From a virus: a stretch of 22,697 nt of DNA. The stretch covers positions 1-22,697 of the IMG/VR virus record IMGVR_UViG_3300025138_000400. One strand, given 5' to 3'. The notes beneath the pieces are model-generated. The model was not told the DNA's origin, searched no databases, and saw nothing but the letters and a program-made list of their open reading frames with translations. This document shows, in pieces, positions 1,202-15,215 of the stretch. A program made the position numbers and the translations under genes. Each line of letters opens with the position of its first letter. The stretch's first letter is position 1.

Positions 1202-1400
1202 AGCATTTATAATGATTTGCCTTGCATCACTGCCGGATTTTTGTTCAGAAGTAGAAGATAGCAGAGGCCCATATTCAGATAGAGAGGCTTGTATAGAAAG
1301 AGTTGCTGAGATGATAGAGGCAACAAAAGAGTTTGGCCCTGAGTATTACACAGCAAACTATAAATACAGATGTCAAAAGCTAGACATGATTGGCACATGA
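1194..1400 (+). CDS. small Cys-containing protein with hydrophobic N-terminus
   Basis: A 68-residue protein. Three in-frame ATGs occur at 1188, 1191 and 1194; AGGAG at 1183-1187 gives a proper six-base spacing only to 1194, so I use that start. It overlaps the preceding gene end by eight bases. The N-terminus (MFKAFIMICLASLP) is hydrophobic and could act as an export signal or membrane anchor. Three later Cys residues, in DFC, REACIER and YRCQK, could form disulfides outside the cytoplasm. The layout resembles the gene at 14230: hydrophobic start, then YxxxxxCxxx and a YxC near the end. Function unknown. Confidence 0.6.
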   Translation: MFKAFIMICLASLPDFCSEVEDSRGPYSDREACIERVAEMIEATKEFGPEYYTANYKYRCQKLDMIGT

Positions 1401-2905
1401 AAGAACTTGCTGCTGTAAAATCAAAAATTGGTCAACTTCCAATAGAAGATCAAAAGGAAATGCTTGACCTTCTTCTTGAGCTTGAGAACGCCAAGGAGAA
1501 AGAGGCATCTAGGACAGACTTTCTGACCTTTGTGAACAAAATGTGGCCTGCGTTTATCGCTGGCAAACATCACGAAGTAATGGCAGATGCCTTTGAAAGA
1601 GTGGCTAAAGGCGAGTTAAAACGCTTGATAATCAATATGCCGCCAAGACACACCAAGTCTGAGTTTGCATCCTTTTTGTTTCCGGCTTGGTTCCTAGGGC
1701 GTTACCCAGAGAAAAAAATAATACAAACAGCACACACGGCAGAACTTGCTGTGGGATTTGGGCGTAAGGTCAGGAACCTTATCGGTCAGGATGACTTCCA
1801 AGAAGTTTTTCCGGGTATAGAACTTTCATCTGACTCCAAGGCTGCTGGGCGTTGGAATACAAACAAGCGGGGTGATTACTTTGCTATTGGTGTTGGTGGT
1901 GCAGTTACTGGTAAAGGTGCTGACGTTCTCATTATTGACGACCCCCACTCGGAGCAGGAGGCGGCACTGGGGGCTTACAACCCAGAAGTCTACGACAAGG
2001 TGTACGAATGGTATACATCGGGGCCAAGACAGAGGCTGCAACCCGGCGGGTCGATAATAATTGTTATGACCAGATGGTCTACGAGAGACCTTACTGGTAA
2101 AATAATTAAATCAGTGACCCAAAAAGAGGGTGTGGATGACTGGGAAGTTATAGAACTGCCAGCAATTATGCCGTCTGGTGATCCTTTGTGGCCTGAGTTC
2201 TGGCCTTTGGAACAGTTGGAGGCACTAAAAGCCGAATTGCCTGTGTCTAAGTGGTCTGCACAGTATCAGCAAGACCCGACTTCTGAGGAAGGTGCGTTAA
2301 TTAAGCGCGAATGGTGGCAAGAATGGGAAAAAGAAGGCCCGCCACCGTGCGAAGCTATAATTCAAAGCTGGGATACAGCGTTTTTGAAAACGCAACGCGC
2401 AGATTACAGCGCTTGTACCACTTGGGGGGTGTTTCAGCACCCTAATGAAAGTGGAGAAATGATGCCAAACCTTATATTGCTGGACGCATATAAGGAAAAA
2501 CTGGAGTTTCCAGAGCTAAAAAGGGCAGCATACGATAAATATTGGGAATTTGAGCCTGATCAGATGATTGTTGAAGCAAAAGCTGCTGGTTCCCCGCTTA
2601 TTTTTGAACTTAGGGCAATGGGTATACCTGTTACAGAGTTTACTCCGTCCAGAGGGCAGGACAAGATAGCCCGTGTTAACGCTGTTAGTGATTTGTTCGC
2701 TAGTGGTGTAATATGGTGTCCACCAACTAGGTGGGCTGATGAGGTAATGGAAGAGTGTGCTGCTTTTCCAGCGGGAGATCACGATGATCTTGTTGACTCC
2801 ACAACGCAGGCGCTTCTTAGGTTTCGTCAAGGTGGGTGGATTAGAAGTACAATGGATGAATGGGATGACGAACCTAAATACAGAAGAGCAGTTGAATACT
2901 ATTGA
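1370..2905 (+). CDS. terL: terminase large subunit (packaging ATPase/nuclease)
   Basis: A 511-residue protein with both expected domains. The N-terminal ATPase has a Walker A-like PPRHTKSE (about residues 91-98), Walker B LIIDDP (187-192) and a coupling motif VMTRWSTRDLTG (232-243). The C-terminal RNase H-like nuclease has metal-binding acids at D335 (SWDTA), E402 (VEAKAAG) and the GDHDD cluster (469-473). Length is normal for the family. It pumps DNA into the prohead through the portal and cuts concatemers. The start is uncertain: ATG 1370 overlaps the previous gene by 31 bases and has no clear ribosome binding site, and ATG 1397 is an alternative. Translational coupling is likely. No small terminase subunit is recognisable; the genes at 600-1400 are the candidates. 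Confidence 0.96.
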   Translation: MSKARHDWHMKELAAVKSKIGQLPIEDQKEMLDLLLELENAKEKEASRTDFLTFVNKMWPAFIAGKHHEVMADAFERVAKGELKRLIINMPPRHTKSEFASFLFPAWFLGRYPEKKIIQTAHTAELAVGFGRKVRNLIGQDDFQEVFPGIELSSDSKAAGRWNTNKRGDYFAIGVGGAVTGKGADVLIIDDPHSEQEAALGAYNPEVYDKVYEWYTSGPRQRLQPGGSIIIVMTRWSTRDLTGKIIKSVTQKEGVDDWEVIELPAIMPSGDPLWPEFWPLEQLEALKAELPVSKWSAQYQQDPTSEEGALIKREWWQEWEKEGPPPCEAIIQSWDTAFLKTQRADYSACTTWGVFQHPNESGEMMPNLILLDAYKEKLEFPELKRAAYDKYWEFEPDQMIVEAKAAGSPLIFELRAMGIPVTEFTPSRGQDKIARVNAVSDLFASGVIWCPPTRWADEVMEECAAFPAGDHDDLVDSTTQALLRFRQGGWIRSTMDEWDDEPKYRRAVEYY

Positions 2906-8188: not shown

Positions 8189-9094
8189 ATGGCTATTTCT
8201 CGCGCCCAGCTCCTTAAGGAGCTTCTACCCGGTCTAAACGCATTGTTCGGTCTTGAGTACGGCAAGTACGAAAACGAACATTCGGAGATCTATGAAACCG
8301 AAACTTCAGAGCGTAGCTTTGAGGAAGAGGTCAAACTTTCAGGCTTTGGTGCTGCACCAGTTAAGCAAGAAGGTTCACAGGTCTCATTTGACACGGCTCA
8401 AGAGTCTTTCACAGCTCGCTATAACCATGAGACCATTGCTATGGGCTTTTCGGTTACAGAAGAAGCTATGGAAGATAACCTGTATGACTCTTTGTCTGCT
8501 CGTTACACTAAAGCCCTTGCACGGGCAATGGCGTACACAAAGCAGGTCAAGGCAGCTTCATTGTTGAACACTGGTTTTGATACCTTCACATCTGGCGATG
8601 GCGAGTTTCTTTTTGATACTGACCACCCGACAGTTGCTGGCGGTAACAACGCTAACCGTCCATCAGTAGCCGCTGACTTGAATGAGACATCATTGGAAGA
8701 TGCTGTTATCAACATTGCAGCTTTCGTTGACGAGCGTGGTCTTTTGATCGCAGCCCGCCCACGCAAGTTGATTGTACCGCCTGCATTGATGTTTGTTGCA
8801 ACTCGTTTGCTCCAGACTGAAGGCCGCGTAGGTACTGCTGATAACGATCTGAACGCTATTCGTTCAAACGGTTCGATTCCAGAAGGTTACACTATCAATC
8901 ACTACCTGACTGATACAGACGCCTTCTTTATCACAACCGATGTTCCAAACGGCATGAAGCACTTTGTTCGTACTCCAATGTCAACATCTATGGATGGTGA
9001 CTTTGATACAGGCAATGTTCGCTACAAAGCCCGTGAGCGTTACAGCTTCGGTGTATCAGATCCATTGGGCATTTATGGCTCACCGGGTGCTTAA
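8189..9094 (+). CDS. major capsid protein (HK97-fold, Mu gpT-like)
   Basis: A 301-residue protein in the canonical capsid position after scaffold and decoration genes. It opens with helical AISRAQLLKELLPGLNALFGLEYGKY, then a stretch rich in E and F that looks like an E-loop (SERSFEEEVKLSGFG). The central region contains TEEAMEDNLYD, LARAMAYTKQVKAA and LFDTDHPTVAGG; the last resembles the Mu gpT-type head protein family. ARPRKLIVPPALMFVATRLL and the C-terminal FVRTPMSTSMDGDFDTGNV fit the A-domain end. It forms the icosahedral shell. AGGAG lies about ten bases before the ATG. An intrinsic terminator follows the stop, as expected for the most abundant virion transcript. Confidence 0.88.
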   Translation: MAISRAQLLKELLPGLNALFGLEYGKYENEHSEIYETETSERSFEEEVKLSGFGAAPVKQEGSQVSFDTAQESFTARYNHETIAMGFSVTEEAMEDNLYDSLSARYTKALARAMAYTKQVKAASLLNTGFDTFTSGDGEFLFDTDHPTVAGGNNANRPSVAADLNETSLEDAVINIAAFVDERGLLIAARPRKLIVPPALMFVATRLLQTEGRVGTADNDLNAIRSNGSIPEGYTINHYLTDTDAFFITTDVPNGMKHFVRTPMSTSMDGDFDTGNVRYKARERYSFGVSDPLGIYGSPGA

Positions 9095-12230: not shown

Positions 12231-12399
12231 AGAGGGGGTTGTAAAGGTTCATTGTGGGCCTAGATGCCCAAGATGTCAGGATGGATTAAGAACCGTGTAT
12301 GTACACGGGCATGAGCAGTGTATTGCTTGTGGATGCGTTATTGAAGATTGTTGCCAAGGAGAAGTCTCATGCGGAAGTGTGGAGCAAAAAAACCAGTAG
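12187..12399 (+). CDS. small Cys-rich zinc-ribbon protein
   Basis: A 70-residue protein with an AGGA ribosome binding site before ATG 12187. It is acidic at the N-terminus, then has CPRC (27-30), HGHEQCIACGC (40-50) and DCCQGEVSC (54-62). The two CxxC knuckles fit a zinc ribbon, and the extra Cys residues allow a second metal site. I remember HGHxQC-x2-C followed by EDCCQGE as a phrase in marine phage proteins of unknown function. It overlaps the nuclease-like gene by 44 bases and the next gene by 31, both in other frames, which is unusually compact even here. Confidence 0.72.
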   Translation: MQEQKPQEKLTEERKEGVVKVHCGPRCPRCQDGLRTVYVHGHEQCIACGCVIEDCCQGEVSCGSVEQKNQ

Positions 12400-13145
12400 C
12401 TATGAAGCGCGGCGGTAAGGCCACTGTAAAAAATCCAGTGGCTAAAGCTGTAGGGGGCATAAAGCCTAGCGTTGTAAAGCCAAAGAAGGGAAAGGGGTCT
12501 TACACGAGGAAGATCTCTTCCTTTAGTTCTGGGGGTGCTGCAAAGGTTCGGTCTGCTGGCAAAGAATACATGGCTAGTATCAGGGCTAAAGCTCCAGCAA
12601 CTGGAGTAAAGGCCAAGGCAAGGCAAAAGGCCGCAAAAGAAAAGATTGAGAAAGATTTAAATAAGGCCCGCAAGGGCTTTGCCACCCCAGCCAGACAAGC
12701 AGAAATGAAGTCAGGTGGGAGCGTAAAGAAAAAGATTAATAAGGTTGTTAAGGGTCTGAAGAAGGCATCTAAATTACACGCTGGTCAGGCAAAGACATTA
12801 TCTTCTCTTAAGCTAAGAGAGGGCGGATCTACAACAAAAAGAAAGCCAAAGATAAAAACCCCAAAAGGCACAAAGGGATTTAAGGGAATACAGCCCCTGA
12901 GACGCACTACCTTGAGGGCAAGTAGATATGAGTCTGGTGGTGATGTTGAGCCAATGAAAAAGGGCGGCAAAACAAAGTCTACCGTTAATAAGGCTGGTAA
13001 TTATACAAAGCCATCAATGCGTAAACAAATATTTAATAGAATTAAAGCTGGCGGTAAAGGCGGCGCTCCGGGTCAGTGGAGTGCGCGTAAGGCTCAAATG
13101 GTAGCCTCTGCCTACAAGAAAGCTGGTGGAGGATATAGAGACTAA
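12369..13145 (+). CDS. large Lys/Gly-rich basic protein with C-terminal GQWSARK domain
   Basis: A 258-residue protein. AAGGAG lies seven bases before ATG 12369, so I prefer it to the upstream TTG. It is extremely Lys-rich and punctuated by GG motifs followed by basic residues: KRGGKA, KSGGSVKKK, REGGSTTKRK, ESGGDVEP, KKGGKTK. The C-terminal ~45 residues (KPSMRKQIFNRIKAGGKGGA, PGQWSARKAQMVASAYKKAG) form a recognisable unit that I recall from phage and giant-virus proteins, possibly DUF5872; this is from memory. A DNA-binding or internal capsid role is inferred from charge. The stop overlaps the oxygenase start (TAATG), so the two are translated in series. Confidence 0.68.
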   Translation: MRKCGAKKPVAMKRGGKATVKNPVAKAVGGIKPSVVKPKKGKGSYTRKISSFSSGGAAKVRSAGKEYMASIRAKAPATGVKAKARQKAAKEKIEKDLNKARKGFATPARQAEMKSGGSVKKKINKVVKGLKKASKLHAGQAKTLSSLKLREGGSTTKRKPKIKTPKGTKGFKGIQPLRRTTLRASRYESGGDVEPMKKGGKTKSTVNKAGNYTKPSMRKQIFNRIKAGGKGGAPGQWSARKAQMVASAYKKAGGGYRD

Positions 13146-14230
13146 TGCCGCCTAGGAACCACAAAAGCTGGGTGCAAGAGCCTAGTGTAGAGTACATAAA
13201 CTCACTTATATATTCTGATCATGGTTTGTATGAGCAAGAGATAGAAAACATATTTTCCAAGGTTTGGGTTCCAATGTGTCACTCTAGTGAGCTGCCAAAC
13301 TTGGGTGACTTTAGAAAAACACAGATAGCGTTACAGAATGTTTTAGCTGTACGTTTTGAAAGTGGTGTAGTCAGAGCATTTCTTACAGACAAGGTAATCC
13401 ACCCTTCAGGCAACGATCTATCCTTAACCTACCATTCAGGTAACTGGAAAGAGCTGTATTGTGAAGTCAAACACGGCGGGATGGTTTGGGTTACGCTTGA
13501 TCCTAATCCTGCACAGAGTGTTGAAGAATGGACGGGAGGGGCTTTTGATTGCATATCAGATGCTATCGATACTGAGGAAATGGAAGTGTTTCACTACCAT
13601 AAAGCGGTAATTAATACGAACTACAAGCTATGGCACGACACTAATAGCGAGTTCTACCACGATTTTATGCACTACTTTAATCGTGTGTCAGGATTTAACG
13701 ATGAATATTTTGCTAGAAAAAATATACCATTTGATAACGGACACGTTAACGTCAGTAGCTTTACAGTTAACTACGAGGAATACGATGGCTTTGAGGATAG
13801 AGGAGAGCTTAGTTTCCCTAACCTCCCACCCAATCAATGGTACATGGTTGATCTGTTCCCCGGATTTAATTTTAATCTGCGTGGCAGTGCTTATAGAAGC
13901 GATAGCGTTACACCTCTTGGGCCAAACAAGGTACTTATTGAGTTTCGCGGATATGGTCTCAAGAAAGATACGACCGAAGAACGCAATACCAGAATTAAGC
14001 ACCATAACTCTATCTGGGGGCCATTCGGGAGAAACCTTCACGAAGACTTAATTGGAGTCGCTGGTCAAGGCACAACAATGCGTGAGGGAACTGAGCCACG
14101 CAACATATTGCATGGAAGGCATGAGAACGGAACCATCCATGATGAGGTTGGTATGCGTCATTATTATGCAGAATGGAGCAAGTGGATGGGGGTTGAAGCA
14201 AGTAACCCCAATCTATCCATAGCCGCCTAA
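13145..14230 (+). CDS. Rieske-type oxygenase alpha-subunit homologue lacking Rieske cluster ligands
   Basis: A 361-residue protein of the ring-hydroxylating oxygenase alpha-subunit family. The catalytic domain keeps NYKLWHDTNSEFYHDFMHYF (159-178), with E169, H172 and H176, and D301 in HEDLIG; H172, H176 and D301 are the likely mononuclear iron facial triad. The N-terminal domain keeps the family frame (FSKVWVPMCHSSELP, VRAFL, EVKHGGMVWVTLDP at 107-120). The CxH and CxxH that bind the 2Fe-2S cluster are absent: TDKVIHP stands at the first site and LTYHSGNW at the second, and the domain is shortened. The HxxxH spacing is one residue shorter than the usual HxxxxH. I recall a methanesulfonate monooxygenase homologue in SAR116 phage HMO-2011; this may be related. 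Substrate and electron donor are unknown. Confidence 0.82.
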   Translation: MPPRNHKSWVQEPSVEYINSLIYSDHGLYEQEIENIFSKVWVPMCHSSELPNLGDFRKTQIALQNVLAVRFESGVVRAFLTDKVIHPSGNDLSLTYHSGNWKELYCEVKHGGMVWVTLDPNPAQSVEEWTGGAFDCISDAIDTEEMEVFHYHKAVINTNYKLWHDTNSEFYHDFMHYFNRVSGFNDEYFARKNIPFDNGHVNVSSFTVNYEEYDGFEDRGELSFPNLPPNQWYMVDLFPGFNFNLRGSAYRSDSVTPLGPNKVLIEFRGYGLKKDTTEERNTRIKHHNSIWGPFGRNLHEDLIGVAGQGTTMREGTEPRNILHGRHENGTIHDEVGMRHYYAEWSKWMGVEASNPNLSIAA

Positions 14231-14445
14231 TGATACATGCATTTTTATTAATTGTTGTTCTCGGCGGTAAAACAGTCAGCCAAGATATGTACTTTCGGTC
14301 AATAGATGACTGCAACTATTTTGCCTCTAAAGTCTCAAAAAGATACGGTAATTATCAAAGCTATAGTGGCGTACCTTCAAAGCATAAGGTTACGTCTTAT
14401 TGCAAGCCAGTTAAAATCAACCCAAACGCAACAGAAGTTTACTAG
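14230..14445 (+). CDS. small protein with hydrophobic N-terminus and two Cys
   Basis: A 71-residue protein overlapping the oxygenase stop (TAATG). The first ten residues (IHAFLLIVVLGG) are hydrophobic and could be a short export signal or anchor. The rest holds YFRSIDDCNYFASKVS and VTSYCKPVKI, with two Cys that could form one disulfide. It resembles the gene at 1194 in size and plan. I recall similar small proteins in marine phages, usually with unknown role. Direct linkage to the oxygenase may be coincidental, since all genes here overlap. Confidence 0.6.
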   Translation: MIHAFLLIVVLGGKTVSQDMYFRSIDDCNYFASKVSKRYGNYQSYSGVPSKHKVTSYCKPVKINPNATEVY

Positions 14446-14937
14446 ATGATTGCTGAAACCCTAGCGGGGATATCTTTATTTAAGGCTGCTGTAGATGGCA
14501 TTAAAGGCGCTATTGGCACAGCCAACGATGTATCCGATATAGCAAGCTATATAGATGGCTTGTTTGAGGGTGAGAAACAGGTACAGCAACTTAGAAGTAA
14601 AAAGTCTGGTGTTGGTGGCGTTGGAGATCAATTTGGTGTAAAATCAGTAGCAACAGAGGTTATTAACGCAAGAATAGCCAAGGAGCAAATGCAAGAAATC
14701 GCAACTATGGTCGATATGCGTTTTGGTCATGGAACTTGGAGAAGTATAACAGAAGAGAGAGCGAAAAGAATAAGAGAAGCTAAAGAGGCCGCTGCTGAAG
14801 CTAGAAGACAAAAAATTCAAAAGGCGCAAGAGTTAGAGGAAACCATAAAGATGTGCCTTGGGGTTTTTGCTCTTGTAGTAACGATACTTGGTCTTGTTGT
14901 ATTTTTAATGGTTTCTGTTGCTAAGGCTCTTGTTTAA
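14446..14937 (+). CDS. coiled-coil protein with C-terminal transmembrane helix
   Basis: A 163-residue protein starting directly after the previous stop. Residues 1-45 (AETLAGISLFKAAVDGIKGA, ASYIDGLFEGEKQVQQ) are helical and amphipathic. A middle motif DMRFGHGTWRSI (90-101) follows, then a charged coiled coil rich in Lys, Glu and Ala (102-134), and a hydrophobic helix (137-158, MCLGVFALVVTILGLVVFLM) that spans a membrane. I remember homologues starting MIAETLAGI in marine cyanophages and pelagiphages among virion genes. An internal virion or ejection protein that inserts into the host membrane, or a holin-like protein, are both possible; the sequence does not decide. Confidence 0.72.
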   Translation: MIAETLAGISLFKAAVDGIKGAIGTANDVSDIASYIDGLFEGEKQVQQLRSKKSGVGGVGDQFGVKSVATEVINARIAKEQMQEIATMVDMRFGHGTWRSITEERAKRIREAKEAAAEARRQKIQKAQELEETIKMCLGVFALVVTILGLVVFLMVSVAKALV

Positions 14938-14954: not shown

Positions 14955-15215
14955 ATGCCGTTAAAAAAATCGCAAAGAAGTCTTAAATCTTGGACTAAGC
15001 AAAAGTGGACAACGAAAAGTGGAAAGCCCTCTACACAAGGATCAAAGGCCACTGGGGAACGTTACCTACCAGCCTCTGCTATCAAGTCGCTTTCGTCTAA
15101 GGAATACGCATCCACCACGGCTGCTAAAAGAAAAGCAACTAAGGCTGGTAAGCAATTTGCCAAACAGCCTAAAAAAATACGAGCTAAAGTAAAGCCCCAT
15201 AGGAAGGTCAGATAA
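14955..15215 (+). CDS. small Lys/Ser-rich conserved protein
   Basis: An 86-residue basic protein with AGGGAA upstream of ATG 14955. It contains SLKSWTKQKWTTKSGKPSTQ, GSKATGERYLPASAIKSLS, KEYASTTAAKRKATKAGKQF and a basic end. The WTKQKW-x-TKSGKPS and GERYLP segments are highly conserved in proteins I remember from many phages, which fits a small nucleic-acid-binding or virion protein. It is placed between the membrane-anchored protein and the adaptor gene, with a TAATG overlap to the latter. No enzymatic function is known to me. Confidence 0.75.
   Translation: MPLKKSQRSLKSWTKQKWTTKSGKPSTQGSKATGERYLPASAIKSLSSKEYASTTAAKRKATKAGKQFAKQPKKIRAKVKPHRKVR

Follow-up and report, generated by a model that had tools for sequence, protein, structure and literature searches.

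A cluster-less MsmA-type alpha subunit in a phage genome: catalytic half of a putative split Rieske oxygenase

In Rieske oxygenases, the Rieske cluster and the mononuclear iron of the same chain are >40 Å apart, and electrons cross ~12 Å from the cluster to the iron of the neighbouring chain (PMC7948474, PMC12445004). This inter-subunit transfer needs a bridging Glu in CntA, where all bridging-Glu mutants are inactive (PMC7948474). A catalytic subunit without its own cluster has been described in the caffeine N7-demethylase NdmCDE, in which NdmC has no Rieske cluster and the reductase NdmD carries the Rieske domain as a fusion (PMC4408171). In 2015, the 'MsmA' proteins of phage HMO-2011, of GOS and of viromes, as well as one of the two MsmA proteins of the SAR116 host IMCC1322, were reported to lack the CXH-Xn-CXXH motif, and the portions of that paper considered here offer no explanation for the loss (PMC4433239). 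Several viromes have viral msmA among their auxiliary genes (PMC10134843, PMC10653327, PMC9636769).

Here we analysed such a gene in a viral DNA stretch of 22,697 nucleotides (the window; IMG/VR record IMGVR_UViG_3300025138_000400). The gene (13145..14230, plus strand, as are all window features below) starts with ATG and encodes 361 aa of a cluster-less MsmA-type alpha subunit, which we read as the catalytic half of a putative split Rieske oxygenase. The closest relative with an annotation is gp61 of HMO-2011, by its label a methanesulfonate monooxygenase hydroxylase alpha subunit, which is 75% identical and has likewise lost the cluster motif. Among 50,697 phage records, close matches were found in the two HMO-2011 records only, and two Acinetobacter phage records matched at 24%. 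The window protein thus belongs to the same family as gp61 and the viral 'msmA' products and shares their cluster loss, whereas its phage differs, being of the HTVC023P type.

The gene lies between the capsid and tail genes, and the TAATG stop/start overlaps noticed at the outset are present at both of its ends, with the upstream gene at 13143..13147 and with the downstream gene at 14228..14232. The upstream cassette gene (12348..13145; 265 aa, phrog_17747) has a C-terminus common to HMO-2011, and the downstream one (14230..14445; 71 aa) is a homologue of HMO-2011 gp62. Also next to the oxygenase is a 163-aa gene without a PHROG (14446..14937), homologues of which occur in 78 of the 154 listed viral loci carrying the oxygenase. 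A further cassette gene is an 86-aa homologue of HMO-2011 gp59 (14955..15215; phrog_14910).

Iron site and Rieske region of the window protein

Pfam matched the window protein to Ring_hydroxyl_A (PF00848) at 33.5 bits, above the gathering score of 24.9, and reported no Rieske domain in it. By alignment, the helix EFYHDFMH (residues 169-176; 13649..13672) carries the bridging Glu169 and the iron ligands His172 and His176, and the third iron ligand is Asp301 of the HEDLIG motif (codon at 14045..14047), which is invariant. Glu169 stands three residues ahead of the first iron His, which is the place of the bridging acid in the Rieske oxygenase family. The viral scans returned at least 599 matching stretches, and almost all of these are relatives. 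E169, H164, H172, H176 and D301 are 100% conserved in the 116 distinct phage proteins among the matches listed, in 16 cellular cluster-less proteins and in 63 full MsmA proteins; E169 is therefore invariant although the cluster-less proteins have no cluster of their own.

The Rieske side of the protein is the opposite. No CxH...CxxH pair occurs in any of the 116 distinct phage homologues among the matches listed or in the 16 cellular cluster-less homologues. In the same phage set, the alignment columns of the Rieske ligands hold gaps or, for the most part, other residues, and residues 1-128 contain no conserved Cys. The CXH-X26-CXXH motif is found in 62 of the 63 full MsmA proteins, and the last His is read as X in the remaining one. 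Alternative cluster ligands elsewhere in the window protein were also considered and rejected, as none appear in the alignment. The original prediction of an oxygenase homologue that has kept E169, H172, H176 and D301 and lost its cluster is therefore confirmed by Pfam and alignment, with neither displaced cluster ligands nor varying iron ligands. One detail has to be read differently. The prediction had pointed to HxxxH in place of HxxxxH as an oddity; the spacing is correct, but H-x3-H occurs in all 63 cellular MsmA proteins examined and is thus an inherited trait of the MsmA family, and we rejected it as a mark of altered or new chemistry.

Compared with MsmA, the window protein has a ~71% identical catalytic domain with the same EFYHDxxH helix, HED loop and HxxxH spacing, and its host cluster-less counterparts lie in the msm operon; it differs in lacking both Rieske ligand pairs and ~50 residues of the cluster-binding loops. 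Over the full protein, identity is 77-80% to the SAR116 operon copies and 50-59% to full MsmA. The structure model of the window protein (pLDDT 85) aligns with NagGH (7c8z) over 324 residues (Z 32.5, rmsd 3.2), and the top 41 entries of the structure search are all Rieske oxygenases with Z of at least 28. The model thus has the full-length fold of a Rieske oxygenase alpha subunit, with the iron-site region modelled at moderate confidence (block-mean pLDDT 56-77 around residues 161-180 and 291-310).

The two domains also differ in constraint. Residues 63-107, the emptied cluster region (13331..13465), are hypervariable with 39% identity among phages, while catalytic residues 129-350 are 92% identical; the corresponding values among full MsmA proteins are 76% and 75%. 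Almost all comparisons show saturation at synonymous sites (pS about 0.71-0.99), and the contrast indicates that constraint was lost in the cluster region and kept in the catalytic domain. The catalytic domain of the window protein has a mean identity of 91.5% to the host cluster-less copies, and the phage proteins retain 95 of the 99 catalytic columns that are invariant in MsmA. Near-fixed differences between cluster-less and full MsmA proteins are found at M113, F178, D218 and Y270, where the host cluster-less copies share the phage states. These four residues of the window protein are candidates for an altered interface.

Rieske-only copies and the msm operon of SAR116 genomes

The genome scan recovered two groups of proteins. 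Those of about 362 aa are cluster-less and come mainly from SAR116; those of 409-433 aa are MsmA proteins with CxH-X26-CxxH, and most belong to other Alpha- and Gammaproteobacteria. The operon order shared by most SAR116 loci is divergent transporter genes, a protein of 796-857 aa, MsmB, the Rieske ferredoxin MsmC, an unknown protein of ~280 aa and the cluster-less gene. The 796-857-aa protein is a fusion. It consists of an MsmA-like N-terminal half with intact CPHR...CMFH ligands and, as C-terminal half, an FAD ferredoxin reductase (PF07992, Pyr_redox_2, and PF14759). Pfam scored its Rieske domain (PF00355) at 62.6 bits and PF00848 at 17.8 bits, which is under the cut-off of 24.9. The iron-ligand helix is deleted in most copies; in the fusion of genome G092 it is still recognisable as KFHQDFMK, with the Glu and both His substituted and the Asp loop lost. 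The MsmA-like half of the fusion was modelled with a pLDDT of 68.6 and gave a Z of 26.8 over 295 residues. Since both halves model as whole alpha subunits, a mixed alpha-subunit oligomer of the cluster-less subunit and the fusion is plausible.

G092 is a single contig of 2,753,527 bp and is probably IMCC1322, the host of HMO-2011; the pair of halves is thus present in the likely host of a phage that carries the catalytic one. Its operon additionally encodes molybdopterin, 4Fe-4S and DmsC-like proteins of the Soe/Dms-like kind, which fit a sulfite dehydrogenase. No GST-like protein was found by Pfam among the nine G092 operon proteins scanned.

Several loci depart from the common arrangement. 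In G005 and G010, about 10 kb lies between the two halves, and G005 (C45, C16), together with locus L256, represents one SAR116 genome with two copies of each half at this distance. In G010 (locus L255, 13189-15575), the fusion is split into ORFs of 330 and 465 aa with a 4-base overlap, which may be a sequencing error or a natural parting of the Rieske half from the reductase. A protein of 276-293 aa without a Pfam match (for example L254, 13555-14382, and the c11 cluster loci) occurs in most SAR116 msm operons, with MsmC or Soe-like genes on one side and the cluster-less gene on the other, and also near some full msm loci.

The fusion and the cluster-less protein are mirror images in their conservation. 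All 11 fusions keep the Rieske C/H/C/H ligands and have lost the iron-site residues, apart from one isolated His in the L088 copy, while the 116 phage proteins (among the matches listed) and the 16 cellular cluster-less proteins have the opposite ligand pattern. In the Rieske domain, the fusions are 67% and the cluster-less proteins 37-38% identical to full MsmA; in the catalytic domain, the values are 33% and 70-71%, respectively. The fusions retain 42 of the 48 MsmA-invariant Rieske columns and 22 of the 99 catalytic columns. Between fusions, the Rieske domain is 90% identical, the cluster loops 97% and the catalytic domain 44%; the cluster loops are 79% identical to those of MsmA.

The two genes also occur together. 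Among 136 Puniceispirillales genomes, 12 carry the cluster-less gene and the same 12 carry the fusion, the one in G009 being a fragment at a contig end, while neither is found in the other 124 (Fisher p 2e-17, or 2e-15 without G009, both uncorrected for phylogeny). G018, the only one of the 136 with a full MsmA, has neither half. Three more MAGs outside the order list (G007, G008 and G014) have both halves. The cluster-less gene stands by itself in G003, on a 6.7-kb contig that starts inside MsmB, and the fusion may therefore lie past the contig end. At the sequence level, the ligands, the operon linkage and the co-occurrence support a reading of the fusion and the cluster-less gene as two complementary, individually incomplete MsmA copies in SAR116-type hosts. 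The Rieske-only fusion in the host operon, the exact co-occurrence and the mirror-image conservation are new here, while the viral gene family and its missing motif are not. Earlier reports label the viral protein a methanesulfonate monooxygenase or just record the lost motif, and a complementary Rieske half or a split-enzyme logic is not named in the portions considered of PMC4433239, PMC4928673, PMC10134843 and PMC10653327.

Carriage in phages and origin of the gene

By appearance, the 154 listed viral loci comprise 82 of HMO-2011 type, 17 of HTVC023P type, 30 untyped and 25 T4-like, where T4 gp23 was found on a 221-kb contig only and the other T4-like contigs, which may be fragments, were assigned because they resemble nrdA/nrdB and one further gene of locus L097. 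In the T4-like contigs, the oxygenase gene lies near nrdA/nrdB. The cluster-less gene was also found on two contigs binned in bacterial MAGs (L097 and L098; Rickettsiales and Hellea) that consist of phage-like DNA, a placement that reflects either binning contamination or infection.

The window itself was considered as an HMO-2011-type phage and this was rejected, since its terminase, portal and capsid match HTVC023P, HTVC027P and 023Pt_psg01. The terminase large subunit (1370..2905) is nearest to those of 023Pt_psg01 and HTVC027P, and the major capsid protein (8189..9094) is 65-66% identical to those of HTVC023P, HTVC027P and 023Pt_psg01; both type the phage. Over the 16-kb stretch compared, HMO-2011 shares only the oxygenase cassette with the window. 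HTVC023P, which has a SAR11 host, carries PurM to M15-peptidase genes in place of the cassette.

An electron partner encoded by the phage was rejected as well, within the viral collection and the records searched. Neither the Rieske-half query nor a DNA pattern of the MsmA Rieske region matched the Rieske half in IMG/VR; in the control, this pattern recovered all 10 fusion loci and 32 of the 63 MsmA loci, and it would thus miss about half of full MsmA. The 23 viral records searched, partial or complete, contain no Fer2 and no Rieske domain above cut-off. In most cases, the weak Rieske scores in them cover positions 2-42 of the profile and come from frames about as long as the cluster-less protein (~360 aa). 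That the catalytic half recurs alone in three phage types is what would be expected if the host supplies the other half.

In the tree, MsmA and the cluster-less proteins are separated with full support. All cellular cluster-less copies fall into one clade, which is nested within phage sequences when the tree is rooted on MsmA. The AU test does not reject one clade for all phage sequences (p 0.098), and either the cell or the phage copy may have come first.

A putative split oxygenase and its alternatives

Because electrons in Rieske oxygenases go from the cluster of one subunit to the iron of its neighbour, the two halves could form one working enzyme. We favour, with a probability of roughly 0.6, a natural complementary split in which cluster-only and iron-only alpha copies rebuild the active centre across their interface, and of which three unrelated marine phage types took the catalytic copy only. 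In such an enzyme, electrons would pass from NAD(P)H to the FAD of the fusion, then to the MsmC Rieske ferredoxin and the Rieske cluster of the fusion, and would cross the subunit interface via Glu169 to the mononuclear iron (His172/His176/Asp301) of the cluster-less subunit. The iron would activate O2 and convert methanesulfonate to formaldehyde and sulfite, the latter being oxidised next by the Soe/Dms-type molybdoenzyme of the operon. A phage making only the catalytic subunit would, by its assembly with the host Rieske half, keep up or boost the flux during infection. We infer the physical mixed oligomer, the electron path, the substrate, the benefit to the phage and the presence of the operon in the host of the window phage. 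That the window gene is an auxiliary metabolic gene for the catalytic half of a split methanesulfonate monooxygenase, with the host Rieske half as partner, is likely, and we hold this with greater confidence than the wider account.

The retention of the bridging Glu in the cluster-less protein and the presence of MsmC in the same operon are also compatible with an iron oxygenase that takes its electrons straight from MsmC or a different host ferredoxin, in which case the fusion would be a mere reductase with a Rieske relic. We consider this unlikely, because a relic would not keep near-identical cluster loops next to a divergent catalytic domain. Another chemistry, or a decoy or dominant-negative binder that ousts the host catalytic subunit and stops methanesulfonate oxidation, could be suspected from the near-fixed M113, F178, D218 and Y270, though the host cluster-less copies share them. 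This seems still less probable given that the phages retain all iron ligands and nearly all MsmA-invariant catalytic columns and that the window protein is so close to the host copies; one would expect a poison subunit to have lost its iron ligands. Among the three options that the original prediction had left for a protein without its cluster, electrons supplied in another way is thereby favoured, and different chemistry and a binding protein less so.

The same prediction had suggested that the protein is likely made late and might be packaged in the virion, in view of the gene's TAATG overlaps within the virion gene chain; the gene does lie between capsid and tail genes. This suggestion is unsupported and a virion role is very improbable: the gene sits in a variable cassette that is replaced in HTVC023P, its T4-like counterparts are found near nrdA and nrdB, and its catalytic domain is near-identical to that of a host operon protein.

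The proposed complementary split has partial parallels in known systems. The bridging Glu across neighbouring subunits in CntA and other Rieske oxygenase trimers (PMC7948474) has its equivalent in E169, but CntA carries cluster and iron on one chain and here they are on two. The arrangement of NdmCDE (PMC4408171), a cluster-less oxygenase with its Rieske domain fused to a reductase, is the same in SAR116. The SAR116 Rieske half is, however, a degenerate MsmA alpha copy that keeps a dead catalytic domain, whereas that of NdmD is an added Rieske domain; in addition, the operon proteins scanned include no counterpart of the GST-like NdmE, and the phages carry one half only.

With psbA-type auxiliary genes, cyanophages likewise supply a single subunit of a host redox enzyme composed of several, although the enzyme is a different one. 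If true, the split would explain the function of a widespread marine viral 'msmA' without the family-defining cluster, and it suggests that the viral label 'methanesulfonate monooxygenase' covers half an enzyme that depends on the host. It would also provide a natural test system for inter-subunit electron transfer in Rieske oxygenases, with cluster and iron on separate chains. Finally, abundant ocean phages would be tied to methanesulfonate turnover and the sulfur cycle, with a sharp prediction of the hosts they infect.
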